Positions 3,534 through 10,795 of a stretch of 24,210 nucleotides of DNA are shown piece by piece. The DNA is taken from IMG/VR virus record IMGVR_UViG_3300044638_000766, positions 1 through 24,210 of that record; one strand, 5' to 3'. This stretch comes from a virus. How positions within the stretch are numbered: position 1 is the first letter of the stretch; every line of letters begins with the position of its first letter. The position numbers were made by a program, and so were the translations under genes. The notes below the pieces were generated by a model. That model had not been told where the DNA came from. It saw nothing but the letters and a program-made list of their open reading frames with translations, and made no database searches.

Positions 3534-4231
3534 AGAGAGCAAACCCGGCAAGTTGGGGCGTTACCGTCGCCGCGAATCTTGCGCCCGCTTTCAAACTCAA
3601 CAGCCAGTTCTTTGAGCGAAGCAGGCCAGTTGTCGCGCTGCGGGGATCGAAACGTGTGGCCGAGTTTCTCTTCGACCGCCACACCGCGCGCGTACTCTTC
3701 TGGGTAGTCGCGCCAGAGGTCGCGCCACTCACCCAGCCGCTGATACGGACACACGGCGCAATCGGTGCGCTTTGGGATGGTGACATCGCGCGAGGCCAGA
3801 TACTTCCAAACATCAGCCTCGTTCCACCCCCACTCTCGCATGGGAAACCTGATCTTCATGTCTTCGCCGTAGATACCGCGCCGCGCCTCTTCGTCAGCGC
3901 GCAGCCCCACATACAGTACCGACCCGTCAGGAAGCGATTCGAAGTACTTGATCGTCGGCTCGATCTTCAAGATGCGCGTACACCATCTGGCGCGAAAGTT
4001 GGGCAGCATCTGCATCTGGTCGATCAACCCGTACAGGTCAGTCGTGTGGCCTACCTTCTTGATTGGCAGGCCCAGCAGGCGCTCCAGTTTCTCCCAATGC
4101 GCGACCATCTCTGGAAGTTCATTGCCGGTGGCGTTGCAGATCAGTTCGTACTCGCGCGGCTCGACTTCCATCAAACGCAACGCAAGTGCGGTGGAATCTT
4201 TGCCACCGCTCAGTCCAATAACGTGCTTCAT
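3530..4231 (-). CDS. PAPS reductase / DndC-like PP-loop ATP pyrophosphatase family protein
   Basis: 233 residues from ATG 4231. An upstream extension in frame (to 4330) would run through the hairpin and into the previous gene and is rejected. The N-terminus HVIGLSGGKDS (PP-loop, residues 8-13) binds ATP in adenylating enzymes such as PAPS reductase, DndC and thiolation enzymes. ARWCTRILKIEP (81-92) is the second conserved block of the family. Cysteine pairs occur at Cys158/Cys161 (DCAVCPY) and Cys228/Cys231 (CRVC) in addition to Cys84, which could hold a metal or Fe-S cluster. Phages often carry such proteins beside replication genes and their role is mostly unknown; assimilatory sulfate reduction is unlikely here. 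A role in nucleic-acid sulfur modification is a guess. No Shine-Dalgarno is visible: a UUCG hairpin ends 8 bases before the start. Confidence 0.85.
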   Translation of the reverse strand: MKHVIGLSGGKDSTALALRLMEVEPREYELICNATGNELPEMVAHWEKLERLLGLPIKKVGHTTDLYGLIDQMQMLPNFRARWCTRILKIEPTIKYFESLPDGSVLYVGLRADEEARRGIYGEDMKIRFPMREWGWNEADVWKYLASRDVTIPKRTDCAVCPYQRLGEWRDLWRDYPEEYARGVAVEEKLGHTFRSPQRDNWPASLKELAVEFESGRKIRGDGNAPTCRVCSL

Positions 4232-4239
4232 AGGAAGAA

Positions 4240-4253
4240 GGGGCCGAAGCCCC
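4240..4253 (-). terminator. UUCG-loop hairpin between the conserved replication gene and PP-loop gene
   Basis: On the minus strand GGGGC-TTCG-GCCCC forms a 5-bp GC stem with the very stable C(UUCG)G loop. It starts 6 bases after the stop of the gene at 4260-4868 and ends 8 bases before the ATG at 4231. The following bases, TTCTTCC, are pyrimidine-rich but not a U-run, so it may be a partial terminator, an mRNA 3'-end stabiliser, or a block on initiation of the next gene. A longer version of the same hairpin occurs at 21829-21852. Confidence 0.55.
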
Positions 4254-4259
4254 CACCCT

Positions 4260-4868
4260 TTACTCAGCGATGGCCCGACGACGACGGGCAGGCGCTTCCG
4301 GTTCAGCCTTAACTTCGCCCTCCATGCCAATCCACTTCTTCACATCGAACAGAGGCGTGTAGATGCGACCGTAGGACTTGTGAACGTAGTGTTCCTTGCC
4401 CAGCGACACAACAGGCACAGGTGACTCGGGGTTCGTGTCCACGCGCTCGGCGATCTTCACGCCCATCGCCTGCACGGCGCGCTTGCCGCCAACCGAAGTC
4501 ACGGTATAGCGCACTTCCAGACCCTCATCTTCTCCGGACAGGCACTTCATGCTCAGCCCGACCTGTTCCTCCCACCCACGCTTTGCGCCGGGAGGCGCGG
4601 CTTCGAGTTCTGGCAGCGGCGACGTGATGCTGACCATCTTCTCGCCGAGAACCTCGCCTTCACCCCAAGCGATGAACCCGTGGACGAAAGAGAACGGATT
4701 CACCGCCCACAGGGAACCGGCATCGACCTCGGTCTGGTCTGCGCCGAACACCCAATGACCCGTCTTATCCATTTTCAAGATGGCGACGCCCGTTGCGGCG
4801 GCAGGGGCCAACGTGCGGAGAGCGGTGGCAATGGTGGCGATAGAACCGTTTTGGACTACTGGAAACAT
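4260..4868 (-). CDS. Conserved phage replication-region protein (single-stranded DNA-binding candidate)
   Basis: 202 residues, ATG 4868 with AAGGA 9 bases upstream, 6 bases after the DUF2800 gene. I do not match it with confidence to a named family. Visible blocks are GHWVFGADQTEVDAGSLWAV (37-56), FVHGFIAWGEGEVLG, WEEQVGLSMKCLSGEDEG and YGRIYTPLFDVKKWIGM, then a charged, alanine/proline-rich tail ending RRRRAIAE. There is no signal peptide or membrane segment. In the related DUF2800-polymerase cassettes this slot is usually occupied by DUF2815 (Enc34-type ssDNA-binding protein). The sequence here does not look like DUF2815, so an ssDNA-binding role is inferred only from position. The tail is not acidic as in most bacterial SSBs. 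Confidence 0.75.
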   Translation of the reverse strand: MFPVVQNGSIATIATALRTLAPAAATGVAILKMDKTGHWVFGADQTEVDAGSLWAVNPFSFVHGFIAWGEGEVLGEKMVSITSPLPELEAAPPGAKRGWEEQVGLSMKCLSGEDEGLEVRYTVTSVGGKRAVQAMGVKIAERVDTNPESPVPVVSLGKEHYVHKSYGRIYTPLFDVKKWIGMEGEVKAEPEAPARRRRAIAE

Positions 4869-8263: not shown

Positions 8264-8526
8264 GTGACCTACGCAAAGCAGTGCAGACGGCGTTGGAGGC
8301 ATGGGATCGGTCACGACAATGGCCGTTTCCTACCCGCCCAGACAAAGAGTTTGACGCCCTCCGCGCTGCCCTCGCGCAGCCTGAGCGCAAGCCGCTGACG
8401 GAAGATGACATTGAGTTGGCTTACCGAGAAATTTGGCGAGACTTGTCAGATGGCTTTAGCCACACTTCAGTTGAATGGATTGAGGCAGGTATTCGCTACG
8501 CTGAAAAAATGCATGGGATTGAGTGA
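8260..8526 (+). CDS. Small hypothetical phage protein
   Basis: 88 residues, ATG 8260 overlapping the previous stop, with a G-rich GGGGGA upstream. The N-terminal half (RKAVQTALEAWDRSRQWP, then FDALRAALAQPE) resembles a segment repeated in many small proteins of proteobacterial phages. The C-terminal half (EDDIELAYREIWRDLSD and WIEAGIRYAEKMHGIE) is helical and acidic. No enzyme motif. The two-part look suggests a shared module, but function is not known. Confidence 0.72.
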   Translation: MSDLRKAVQTALEAWDRSRQWPFPTRPDKEFDALRAALAQPERKPLTEDDIELAYREIWRDLSDGFSHTSVEWIEAGIRYAEKMHGIE

Positions 8527-8543
8527 CTTTAGGAGAATTATCA

Positions 8544-8705
8544 ATGAGCGATAAATACCACCGCACAATGCAGTCAGCTTTTGGCCCGTATACGTCAAAC
8601 CACATTGACGAAGACCCAGACCCTGCTGAGTCGTGGACATTCTGGTTGGCCGTAGGGGTTACGATCTTGCTGGCCACCCTGATCGTGTGGTTGCTGATAT
8701 GCTGA
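8544..8705 (+). CDS. Small single-pass membrane protein (C-terminal anchor)
   Basis: 53 residues. ATG 8544 is chosen because AGGAG lies 8 bases upstream; an in-frame alternative start at 8523 lacks this. Residues 1-30 are polar and acidic (HIDEDPDPAES), and residues about 31-53 form one hydrophobic helix (FWLAVGVTILLATLIVWLL), so the protein would be tail-anchored in the inner membrane with a cytoplasmic N-terminus. No family recognised. Early-region membrane peptides in phages can act in host takeover or superinfection exclusion; nothing in the sequence decides this. Confidence 0.7.
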   Translation: MSDKYHRTMQSAFGPYTSNHIDEDPDPAESWTFWLAVGVTILLATLIVWLLIC

Positions 8706-8899
8706 TCTTTAGACGTTGTATGTTAGTGGCGATGCTGACCGAAGACGCGCCGCCAGAGAAGCACGAAAGCATTGTGCTGGGGGCGTTGGCCGCGATTGGC
8801 TACACCGTGCCCACGCCTATTCCTAAAGGCGACCTTGTGGCGCTGACCCTTTACATAAGGAACTATGCCCATGAGTACGGCAAACGAAGAACAGATTGA
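8699..8899 (+). CDS. Small hypothetical protein
   Basis: 66 residues. The start is placed at ATG 8699, overlapping the previous gene by 7 bases, although no Shine-Dalgarno is visible; coupling could explain initiation. It contains CMLVAMLTEDAPPEKHES and then a helical region, LVALTLYIRNYAHEYGKR. No membrane segment is convincing. The 3' end overlaps the DUF3310 gene by 29 bases. No family recognised. Confidence 0.6.
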   Translation: MLIFRRCMLVAMLTEDAPPEKHESIVLGALAAIGYTVPTPIPKGDLVALTLYIRNYAHEYGKRRTD

Positions 8900-9122
8900 C
8901 GGATCGCATTACAAAGATCGCACGATTCAACCGTGGGACTACATCGTTCAGAACGACATTCCGTATCTTGAAGGAAACGTCATCAAGTACGTTTCACGCT
9001 GGCGATCCAAGGGCGGCATGACCGACTTGTTGAAGGCGCAGCACTACCTCACAAAACTAATCGAGACAGAACATGAGCGAATTGGAAGCGTTGCGGCTGC
9101 TGGTGGAGCAGCAAAAGGCTGA
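8871..9122 (+). CDS. DUF3310 family protein (SaV-like)
   Basis: 83 residues. ATG 8871 is preferred over ATG 8865 because AAGGA lies 9 bases before it. The family signature is clear: SHYKDRTIQPWDYI, then NDIPYLEGNVIKYVSRW and LLKAQHYLTKLIE. DUF3310 proteins are widespread in phages next to nucleotide or DNA metabolism genes and are described as nucleotide kinase-like/SaV-like, with no firmly known function. The alanine/glycine tail after residue 70 overlaps the start of the next gene. Confidence 0.9.
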   Translation: MSTANEEQIDGSHYKDRTIQPWDYIVQNDIPYLEGNVIKYVSRWRSKGGMTDLLKAQHYLTKLIETEHERIGSVAAAGGAAKG

Positions 9123-9186
9123 GATTGACGCGCTGCGGGCTGACCTGAAAACCGTACTGAAAGCCTGGCGTGATCAAATGTCCTGA
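9073..9186 (+). CDS. Short coiled-coil peptide
   Basis: 37 residues, ATG 9073 to TGA 9184-9186, lying partly within the DUF3310 gene (50-base overlap) and partly within the zinc-ribbon gene (17 bases). The sequence (ELEALRLLVEQQKAEIDALR) has clear leucine/isoleucine heptads of a coiled coil. The upstream Shine-Dalgarno is weak. Similar short helical ORFs are common in phage early operons; it may self-associate or bind a partner. No family recognised. Confidence 0.5.
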   Translation: MSELEALRLLVEQQKAEIDALRADLKTVLKAWRDQMS

Positions 9187-9349
9187 GTGCGGCAGGCACG
9201 CTAAGGTGCTGGATTCGCGGGTTCGTCTCGAATGGCGATACCGGCGTTTTGAGTGCCAGAATGGGCATCGATGGAACGCTCTGGAACGCAAACCAGAAAC
9301 TGACCCTGCACCTCACACCGCCACAGACCATCTTCCTCAAGAGGACTAA
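9170..9349 (+). CDS. Zinc-ribbon protein (NrdR/Ogr-like N-terminal fold)
   Basis: 59 residues starting at GTG 9170 and ending with TAA 9347-9349. It begins IKCPECGRHAKVLDSR and continues RRFECQNGHRW: a CPxCG knuckle, the VxDSR segment and a second ExCxxGH knuckle, very like the zinc ribbon of NrdR or the phage Ogr/Delta activators. Expected role is nucleic-acid binding, perhaps a late-gene activator or RNAP-binding factor, which would suit the last gene of an early operon. The C-terminal 20 residues are acidic and His-rich. It overlaps the lipoprotein ORF on the opposite strand by 149 bases. The start codon is GTG with a weak ribosome site, so expression needs confirmation. Confidence 0.7.
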   Translation: MIKCPECGRHAKVLDSRVRLEWRYRRFECQNGHRWNALERKPETDPAPHTATDHLPQED

Positions 9350-9383
9350 CGCAGCCTGCCAGCAGGAGCAGAATCAGCCGCAC
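9201..9383 (-). CDS. Small lipoprotein downstream of endolysin (outer-membrane spanin candidate)
   Basis: 60 residues from GTG 9383, overlapping the endolysin stop by 10 bases. The N-terminus RLILLLLAGC is a minimal lipoprotein signal with a lipobox (LAGC, Cys11). The mature part is about 50 residues with two further cysteines (WRCEV and LVCV). In Gram-negative phages, a short lipoprotein immediately after the endolysin is usually an Rz1-type o-spanin, which disrupts the outer membrane. This one is not proline-rich, so the spanin label is an inference from place, length and lipobox. It runs antisense to the zinc-ribbon gene over most of its length. Confidence 0.6.
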   Translation of the reverse strand: MRLILLLLAGCVSPLEEDGLWRCEVQGQFLVCVPERSIDAHSGTQNAGIAIRDEPANPAP

Positions 9384-9886
9384 ATCTTGAGCGCGGTGAC
9401 GCGGACTTCTTCAACCCGGCGCTCCCAACCTTTGCCAAACGTGGGCCATGTTGACCGGCCTTTGAGAAACTCCAGCCGGATCGCGCTGTACTTGTCGATC
9501 AGCATTTGGGGGTTGGTCAACAGCACTAGCTTCAGCGTCTGCTCGCCGATTGCGCCATCGGCAACGGCTGCGACGGTGGTTTGTAGCCACTTGGCTGCGC
9601 GAGACACACCGCTGTTGACGGCAGCGTCAAACACGCAATAGTCCACGCCAGACGGCAGCTTGTCGCCCTTGACGCGATCCCAATACATCTCGCGGTACAG
9701 CGGTGCAACCTTGGCTGGCGTGAGTGCCTTCATGTTTTCTTCTGTAACTGTGCGGTCAATCCAATCTTCCCAGACGGCTTGCGTCACGCCGAGGTTGGTA
9801 GCGCCGCCTGGGTCGGACGGATGATTGACGAAACCGCCTTCGTGCTTGAGCAGCTCGGCCAGACTTTTCTCAAAGTTTGTGTTCAC
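9374..9886 (-). CDS. GH108 N-acetylmuramidase endolysin
   Basis: 170 residues, GTG 9886 within GTGA of the preceding stop. The signature EGGFVNHPSDPGG followed by ATNLGVT (catalytic Glu16) is diagnostic of glycosyl hydrolase family 108; the C-terminal part (GAIGEQTLKLVL, YSAIRLEFL, FGKGWERRV) matches the paired peptidoglycan-binding_3 region. It cleaves the glycan backbone of peptidoglycan to lyse the host. There is no signal or SAR segment, so release to the periplasm depends on a holin, and two candidate holins lie just upstream. The lipoprotein ORF follows with a 10-base overlap. Confidence 0.96.
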   Translation of the reverse strand: MNTNFEKSLAELLKHEGGFVNHPSDPGGATNLGVTQAVWEDWIDRTVTEENMKALTPAKVAPLYREMYWDRVKGDKLPSGVDYCVFDAAVNSGVSRAAKWLQTTVAAVADGAIGEQTLKLVLLTNPQMLIDKYSAIRLEFLKGRSTWPTFGKGWERRVEEVRVTALKMCG

Positions 9887-10092
9887 TTGTCATCCCGGCC
9901 CATTTTAATTCCAGCAATCGTGCCGACAAACGCCCCGACTATCATATTGAACGCTGGCTCCATGATTTTGAAGATGGCTTGGTTGTCTACTCGCTCATCA
10001 AAAAAAGCATACAGACAAACAAAGGCAGTTGATACCAACACCACCGCCAGCGAAATGCAGCAGACAACGGTGATCTGATCGCTGACTTTCAT
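9883..10092 (-). CDS. Two-helix membrane protein, holin or antiholin candidate
   Basis: 69 residues, ATG 10092, overlapping the upstream stop (ATGA) and the endolysin start (GTGA). Two hydrophobic segments lie at about 7-31 (VVCCISLAVVLVSTAFVCLY) and 44-62 (FNMIVGAFVGTIAGI), with a charged tail MGRDDK. Size, topology and direct linkage to the endolysin fit a class II holin, or a partner that tunes the larger holin next to it. No family recognised with certainty. Confidence 0.75.
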   Translation of the reverse strand: MKVSDQITVVCCISLAVVLVSTAFVCLYAFFDERVDNQAIFKIMEPAFNMIVGAFVGTIAGIKMGRDDK

Positions 10093-10565
10093 TTCTTGTC
10101 TTTCTCTTTGCTGCCGATACTTGAGCCAAACCAGAAATTAAGCATTGTTGCCACGACAGTCCCCAATATGAAACCAAGAATGGTGTCGGCGAACCGGACG
10201 TTCTGCTCTGGGATTACGCTGAACGTAATGAAGCCAATGTACACCGCCGCAGCAATGCTCCAGAACGAGGTCAAGTACATCGTGAACCGCTTGCTAAACA
10301 CATCCGACTGCTGGAGCGCAGCGATCTGCATAGCCCGAGCGTCAGCGGTGTTGGCGTAGTCGGCCCTGATCTTTTCCAAATCAATCTGCGCCAGCTTCAA
10401 CGCGGCGTCTGGGTCTGCCTTGACGGCCTGCGTCACCGCCTCGACGGTATCTTCTACTCCCAAACGTCGAGCAATAGCTGATACAGCAGCGCCCCCCAAG
10501 GGGCCAGCAACAGCAGTTGCAAGAGCGGGTGCAATGCTGCCAAGCAGTCGGAGCAGTTCATTCAC
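10089..10565 (-). CDS. Holin, GTA_holin_3TM-like
   Basis: 158 residues, GTG 10565 in GTGA overlap with the upstream gene. A glycine/alanine-rich amphipathic or membrane segment lies at about 10-33 (LATAVAGPLGGAAVSAIARR), a helical soluble middle follows (40-92), then two strong membrane helices at about 96-118 and 126-146, ending FGSSIGSKEKDKK. This arrangement and ending match the three-segment holin family found in phages and gene transfer agents. It would open the inner membrane for the endolysin encoded two genes downstream. Confidence 0.8.
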   Translation of the reverse strand: MNELLRLLGSIAPALATAVAGPLGGAAVSAIARRLGVEDTVEAVTQAVKADPDAALKLAQIDLEKIRADYANTADARAMQIAALQQSDVFSKRFTMYLTSFWSIAAAVYIGFITFSVIPEQNVRFADTILGFILGTVVATMLNFWFGSSIGSKEKDKK

Positions 10566-10795
10566 TTGTCTGCTTTCCCGTCAATCCGGTCAAACAACTT
10601 GGTCAGCATCTCTTTGATTTCGCGGATGTCGTCCTTGTAGTCATCACGCACCACATACGTTCGCGGAAGTTCTTCGCGCAGCTTAGCAAGATCAGCTTTC
10701 AGTTCCTTGACCGCTGCCCACATTTCGCGGGCGAACCAACCCAACACGCTTGCTGATACCCCAAGGGCAAGGTTAATCAGGTCTTGTGAGTTCAT
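10562..10795 (-). CDS. Membrane-anchored coiled-coil protein (lysis-region, inner spanin candidate)
   Basis: 77 residues, ATG 10795 (ATGA overlap with the large upstream gene). One N-terminal membrane helix (about 6-25, INLALGVSASVLGWFA) is followed by a highly charged coiled coil (ELKADLAKLREELP, then DDYKDDIREIKEMLTKLFDR). That topology is that of i-spanins, which span the periplasm and pair with an outer-membrane lipoprotein; however, similar small proteins are common before phage holins with unknown roles. The overlap at both ends places it in the lysis group. Confidence 0.7.
   Translation of the reverse strand: MNSQDLINLALGVSASVLGWFAREMWAAVKELKADLAKLREELPRTYVVRDDYKDDIREIKEMLTKLFDRIDGKADK

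Follow-up and report, generated by a model that had tools for sequence, protein, structure and literature searches.

Long antisense overlaps between genes are often dismissed as annotation errors. Such an overlap is found in a freshwater phage known from a 24,210-base virus record (the window, analysed here at its full length), in which a gene for a zinc-ribbon protein (ZR) and a gene for a small lipoprotein (LP) run towards each other on opposite strands. Is one of the two strands a decoy, or does the same DNA encode two proteins, and how could such an arrangement form and persist?

Locus and geometry of the overlap

Both reading frames were confirmed as originally predicted, ZR (59 aa) at 9170-9349 on the plus strand and LP (60 aa) at 9201-9383 on the minus strand, each with a GTG start. 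The DNA common to them (9201-9349) measures 149 nt, which is long relative to 59-60 codons, so that most of both genes is shared. Codon position 1 faces position 1, position 2 faces position 3 and position 3 faces position 2, that is, phase 123:132. ZR closes a rightward run of genes that comprises VRR-NUC-like and SNF2 helicase-like genes (recognized by eye), a DUF3310 gene and a small 37-aa gene (9073-9186, +), a conserved neighbour with which ZR overlaps by 17 nt. Two further same-strand overlaps, one of 50 nt between the DUF3310 and 37-aa genes (9073-9122) and one of 73 nt (8633-8705) between the genes at 8523-8705 and 8633-8899, point to tight packing throughout the rightward operon. Among the replication genes, an ORF on the minus strand (1064-1534) resembles an HNH homing endonuclease, as judged by eye from its translation.

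The leftward lysis cassette that ends in LP lies entirely on the minus strand. It consists of a 77-aa protein with an inferred TM segment and coiled coil (10562-10795; phrog_462, E 4e-12), a possible i-spanin; a 158-aa membrane protein (10089-10565) that matches phrog_1544, a family of unknown function (E 1.6e-28), and is considered holin-like from its position; a 69-aa membrane protein without informative family match (9883-10092), which by sequence and position may be a second holin; and a GH108 endolysin (9374-9886; PF05838, E 3e-30; phrog_315, E 5e-49). The LP lipobox LAGC (9351-9362) is located beyond the endolysin stop codon (9374-9376) and outside ZR. It had been placed 10 bases before that stop; it is instead the LP start codon (9383) that sits 10 nt inside the endolysin gene.

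Conservation of both reading frames

Viral contigs were searched with each protein separately and near-duplicates were dropped, which left 18 distinct sequences, the window included. In all 18 homologous loci both frames are open in the same antisense register and the motifs of both proteins are kept. None of them has a stop in the LP frame, whereas stops interrupt the other two antisense frames in 10/18 and 16/18 loci. An open 49-codon antisense stretch in the same phase is found at 6% of positions inside the phage's own genes, and when the ZR protein is kept fixed and its codons are shuffled synonymously, the fraction of shuffles with an open LP frame is about 0.65 for the right part and about 0.96 for the left part. 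An open LP frame in a single genome is weak evidence on its own, and it is the conservation that carries the case. Because the pair recurs in 18 sequences with the zinc ligands, the lipobox and the LP cysteine pair retained, neither strand is a decoy, and the prediction of two genuine genes on opposite strands of the same DNA is borne out. One locus (L056) displays in-frame length changes, with 4 residues lost between the LP cysteines (HCQFLVC) and both frames still open.

The zinc-ribbon protein

The zinc ligands C4, C7, C29 and H33 are invariant in the ZR alignment of overlapped loci. They belong to a single ribbon (C4-x2-C7 ... C29-x3-H33) and not to the two zinc knuckles first described, and the VLDSR earlier regarded as a ZR motif is replaced in most relatives by VKESR or the like. 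The start codon is GTG, with an ATG or GTG one codon downstream in L066, L067 and L070. Profile searches matched ZR to phrog_10675 (E 3e-6) and to the N-terminal zinc ribbon of NrdR (PF22811; E 2e-4, 21.6 bits, below the Pfam cut-off of 27.2), and the CPEC ... RRxEC layout of these families is also present in ZR. Nevertheless, ZR was not assigned to NrdR: it has only 59 aa, its last knuckle is Cys-x3-His, the ATP-cone domain is absent, and its score against TIGR00244 is 12.8 bits versus a cut-off of 124.65. AlphaFold2 modelled residues 1-40 with confidence as a ribbon (block pLDDT 84-89) and predicted the tail to be disordered (46-52); a Foldseek search of this model against the PDB gave no meaningful hit (best E 0.18). 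ZR probably functions as a zinc ribbon that binds nucleic acid or protein. Calling it an early regulator, as was done originally, is no more than guesswork based on zinc-ribbon matches that are weak and fall under the Pfam cut-off.

The small lipoprotein

LP satisfies the lipobox pattern [LVI][ASTVI][GAS]C after a hydrophobic stretch, and the lipobox of all overlapped members is LAGC, LTGC or LIGC (A, T or I before GC). Besides the lipobox, L20, W21, C23, G27, C32, VPxRS and further residues are conserved in most members. The protein is predicted to be lipidated. PROSITE-type rules for lipoproteins expect the lipobox cysteine at about position 15-35 and a K or R near the N terminus; in LP this cysteine occupies position 11 in the window, 12 in many members and 15-16 in L060, L064, L070 and L071 (11-16 overall). 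Overlapped members start with GTG or TTG, and ATG is used in L071 only, a locus with a different type of lysis cassette. The weak starts and the unusually short signal count against the explanation favoured below. AlphaFold2 predicted a short hydrophobic start and a hairpin with strands 21-26 and 29-34 (block pLDDT 77), with a mean pLDDT of only 57 and a tail disordered from residue 38 (pLDDT about 42). No family was matched in Pfam, PHROGs or NCBIfam at the thresholds used, no convincing match was found in 50,697 annotated phage records, and of the 301 matches from a pattern search of genome contigs 0 were confirmed.

Selection along the overlap

Pairwise differences among the 18 sequences were classed as synonymous or non-synonymous in each frame, so that the test is overlap-aware; confidence intervals are bootstraps over codons, and the sequence pairs are not phylogenetically independent. 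Over the whole overlap, dNN/dSN for ZR was 0.49 (0.28-0.81) and dNN/dNS for LP was 0.58 (0.37-0.89), indicating purifying selection in both proteins. Over ZR codons 13-37 selection is strong on ZR (0.29; 0.12-0.56), and the LP value is not significant (0.69; 0.35-1.24). Over ZR codons 38-59 it is LP that is selected (0.45; 0.26-0.89), and protein-level constraint on ZR is undetectable (1.06; 0.49-2.6). The control antisense frame that faces position 2 to position 2 gave a dNN/dNS of 1.71, and the third antisense frame gave 0.63 (0.35-1.51). The constraint on both strands of 9201-9349 that two coding strands should leave was thus found for both proteins overall, but it is partitioned along the overlap. 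Each stretch of DNA mainly serves one protein, and the overlap is not evenly dual-coding.

Four segments can be delimited accordingly. The ZR core, codons 1-37 (9170-9280, +), is the folded ribbon, is under ZR selection and is present with or without LP; the ZR C-terminal tail, codons 38-59 (9281-9346, +), is an antisense read-through of the LP core. The LP core, residues 1-36 (9276-9383, -), holds the signal, the lipobox, a predicted hairpin with Cys23 and Cys32, and CVPER, and is under LP selection; the LP C-terminal tail, residues 37-60 plus the stop (9201-9275, -), is an antisense read-through of the ZR core. The parts of both proteins that AlphaFold2 leaves disordered match their unconstrained parts. 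Since constraint is partitioned and both tails are predicted to be disordered, the functional part of ZR and that of LP are encoded by different bases.

Each gene without the other

LP-like genes also stand alone without any ZR opposite, encoding 42 aa (L168/L177), 44 aa (L178) and 43 aa (L179). They stop 3-5 residues past CVPE(R/H), where overlapped LPs start their run-on tail, and the tail is absent from them. A small basic protein of the phrog_16028 type ('KPGLYANIxAKRERIAAGS') is encoded right before LP in L179 (3831-4004) and L168 (5328-5489), with no ZR present. In L061 the overlapped LP is preceded by a gene that ends similarly (...KKNK) and joins LP through an identical GTGA junction, and the sequences suggest that a neighbour of this type is common to the stand-alone LPs and the L061 LP.

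ZR, for its part, occurs in LP-less phages. There it overlaps the 3' end of a holin gene by 57 nt (L068, L075) or about 60 nt (L113, L117; holins 57-62 nt overall) and the 3' end of a GH108 endolysin gene by 65 nt (L105). It overlaps no convergent gene in L073, nor in the L003-L016 group, where the next gene apparently runs in the same direction. LP-less homologues include a group with 50% identity and ATG starts. The ZR core is the same in LP-less relatives, and the ZR tail changes with the partner. In the distant Phage DSL-LC05 (OR003940.1; L081, 2998-3270, +) an unannotated zinc-ribbon ORF ends the early operon and has a 141-nt antisense overlap with the annotated holin. In L111, distantly similar versions of both genes, an LP-like frame and a ZR, have the same antisense arrangement. 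L126 carries a different lipobox ORF of 67 aa (MRFLVLLLLLSGCSIQVKRIEC...; 4087-4290, -), which has the early-gene direction and lies downstream of a zinc-ribbon gene. Homologues with one gene only had been named in advance as evidence against two genes. They were found on both sides, but in these the partner is absent or situated elsewhere and has never decayed in place.

The hinge between the two cores

Around the meeting point of the cores, ZR ..HRWSVLER.. lies opposite LP ..CVPERSID.SGT..A. A probable doubly constrained hinge was located here from the contrast in synonymous differences and from sister pairs; it covers ZR codons 25-40 and approximately LP residues 33-48 (9242-9289, both strands). 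Four close relatives with ZR and without LP (L068, L073, L075 and L105) served as the control. The ZR synonymous difference over codons 25-37 was 0.157 with LP vs 0.507 without, compared with 0.336 vs 0.333 over codons 3-12 and 0.432 vs 0.551 over codons 13-24, and amino-acid identity of the ZR core was nearly equal (0.859 vs 0.838). Quartets of LP-bearing sequences reached a maximum of 0.328 over codons 25-37, none attaining the LP-less value of 0.507, and label permutation gave P = 0.03 with n = 4 LP-less sequences. Between nearest-neighbour (sister) pairs, synonymous differences in the hinge amounted to 20/39 without LP vs 25/190 with LP.

L068 is identical to the LP-bearing L064 over ZR codons 2-24, after which the two diverge sharply into different lysis cassettes, which places a probable recombination breakpoint at about ZR codon 24, inside the ZR core. 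Recombination near this codon could contribute to the hinge pattern. Moreover, L068, L075 and L105 have some hinge codons in common and are therefore not fully independent. Because of this breakpoint and these common codons, constraint on about 45 nt in both frames is likely rather than proven. Recency or hitch-hiking is an unlikely source of the low hinge divergence, LP-synonymous divergence being high in the adjacent codons 41-59 (dNS 0.33).

Origin of the overlap

Because both genes exist without the overlap, it is best explained as a tail-to-tail run-on. Very probably, two pre-existing genes have run on through each other, with their cores nearly abutting and with a hinge of about 45 nt that is doubly constrained. 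The rightward early-type operon with ZR would converge on the leftward lysis cassette with LP at a crowded junction, where stop loss and run-on would have extended each gene through its neighbour. With the ZR core ending at about codon 37 and the LP core at about residue 36, the cores would almost abut, and each tail, being the antisense of the partner's core, would be expendable. Both proteins would be made and selected, translation being read from the conserved frames, and recombination would exchange lysis cassettes next to a fixed ZR core. Computational support for this explanation comes from conserved frames, partitioned constraint, the occurrence of each gene free of the overlap elsewhere and swappable partners.

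Other origins were weighed against the same data. If only ZR were real, the LP frame would be a decoy that is open in antisense and carries a lipobox by chance, in keeping with its weak start codons, its short signal and the large share of synonymous shuffles that leave it open. This is highly unlikely, as the lipobox lies outside ZR and is yet kept in 18/18 loci with tolerated changes only, LP is selected over ZR codons 38-59, and LP homologues without any ZR already largely refute it. The converse, a real LP with a decoy ZR frame, could draw on the unconstrained ZR tail, but it hardly deserves credence: it is already refuted by the ZR homologues of LP-less phages, including the 50% identical group with ATG starts, and is contradicted by the invariant zinc ligands and the strong ZR selection over codons 13-37. 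A decoy on either strand was accordingly rejected on the homologous loci, the selection test and the stand-alone LPs. Very unlikely, too, is the de novo origin of LP by overprinting on the ZR gene. The lack of a database family and of a convincing match in the annotated phage records would agree with a new gene, but the LP core is situated outside the ZR core, opposite the non-conserved ZR tail, stand-alone LPs occur in other contexts, and the phrog_16028 gene that precedes LP in L179 and L168 may also precede the overlapped LP of L061. Overprinting was rejected because LP cores exist alone and sit outside the ZR core.

Lysis cassettes and the function of LP

LP ends lysis cassettes of three endolysin types, GH108, GH24 and M15, and the cassette of L071 holds a GTA_holin_3TM holin. 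The 77-aa TM/coiled-coil protein has 184 relatives in viral contigs, and its family heads GH108, GH24 and M15 cassettes whether LP is present or not. From the terminal position in three cassette types, the lipobox and the TM/coiled-coil protein in the cassette, LP may tentatively be regarded as an o-spanin-like lysis accessory, at somewhat below even probability. As in Rz/Rz1 spanins (PMC6139136), a short lipobox protein ends a cassette with a small TM/coiled-coil protein, and o-spanin genes are frequently overlapped and unannotated (PMC6139136). Unlike Rz1, however, LP is antisense to a non-spanin gene, is separated by two or three genes from its putative partner and has no detected o-spanin homology: PHROG, Pfam and NCBIfam searches left it unmatched, except that its signal region alone hit the Rz-like spanin profile phrog_812 at E 0.09.

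It is also possible, though somewhat doubtful, that LP is another kind of envelope lipoprotein, for instance a superinfection-exclusion or lysis-modulating factor. Such a role would suit a gene that is optional, many otherwise complete cassettes having neither LP nor any substitute lipobox ORF, that lies away from the lysis cassette in L179, and whose resemblance to a spanin profile is confined to the signal. The o-spanin assignment is weakened because LP is optional and is located away from the cassette in L179. Against a non-spanin role stand the terminal position of LP in cassettes of three endolysin types and the finding that, in the lysis region of the window, the coding strand has no other credible lipobox ORF.

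Antisense transcripts at the junction

It had further been proposed that the two transcripts silence each other and so link early and lysis timing. No promoter- or terminator-like signal was found at the ZR/LP junction, so reciprocal antisense RNA is possible. Silencing as the function of the overlap would be consistent with genes that converge without intergenic space or a predicted intrinsic terminator, and with the convergent overlap of some form in most relatives whose ZR faces a lysis cassette. It is nevertheless very improbable, since the partner and the overlap length vary freely (149 nt with LP, 57-62 nt with holins, 65 nt with the endolysin, none in L073) and the run-on of two protein genes already accounts for the pattern. 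Because partner and length vary among relatives, no specific RNA is conserved, and this speaks against a dedicated silencing element. With junction signals missing and LP-less relatives having other convergent overlaps or none, the proposed coupling found no backing. There is a slight chance that the junction overlap is selected as a device in a broader sense, with the ZR core as an exchange point for lysis cassettes, antisense RNAs tying early and lysis expression together, or both. As an exchange point, it may allow GH108 with LP, GH24 with a holin, or GH108 alone to be swapped by recombination, with both frames usable in every recombinant.

Relation to known overlaps and significance

The nearest precedent is found in HIV-1, where functional parts in the tat/rev and rev/env overlaps are described as lying opposite disordered parts of the partner (PMC9119678, citing Fernandes et al. 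2016). Segregation of the tat/rev type is found in ZR/LP, where constraint falls on different stretches, the tails opposite the partner's core are predicted to be disordered (block pLDDT <=52) and each nucleotide mainly serves one protein. The HIV genes overlap on one strand, whereas ZR and LP are antisense and convergent, join two operons of a DNA phage and have their segregation inferred from evolution and not from deep mutational scanning.

Phase 123:132 is the commonest in convergent prokaryotic overlaps (PMC2174442), and a survey of overlaps >60 bp found possibly real cases among convergent pairs only (PMC2478687). ZR/LP has the same orientation and phase and fits an origin by stop-codon loss and run-on; it differs in its 149 nt, long for genes of 59-60 codons, and in being backed by 18 distinct sequences as well as by controls that lack LP or ZR. 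Short antisense protein genes are also known from E. coli O157:H7, where overprinted or newly found genes are antisense to an annotated gene (PMC9927249; laoB, PMC5810103), whereas ZR and LP both appear older than their overlap. ZR/LP adds a clear-cut case to a known kind of overlap, and its mechanism is not new.

With natural controls on both sides and an overlap-aware test, ZR/LP shows how such overlaps can form and persist, the route being that dispensable tails run over the core of the neighbour. It also points to an undescribed family of small lipoproteins that end phage lysis cassettes, the genes of which are probably missed by gene callers.
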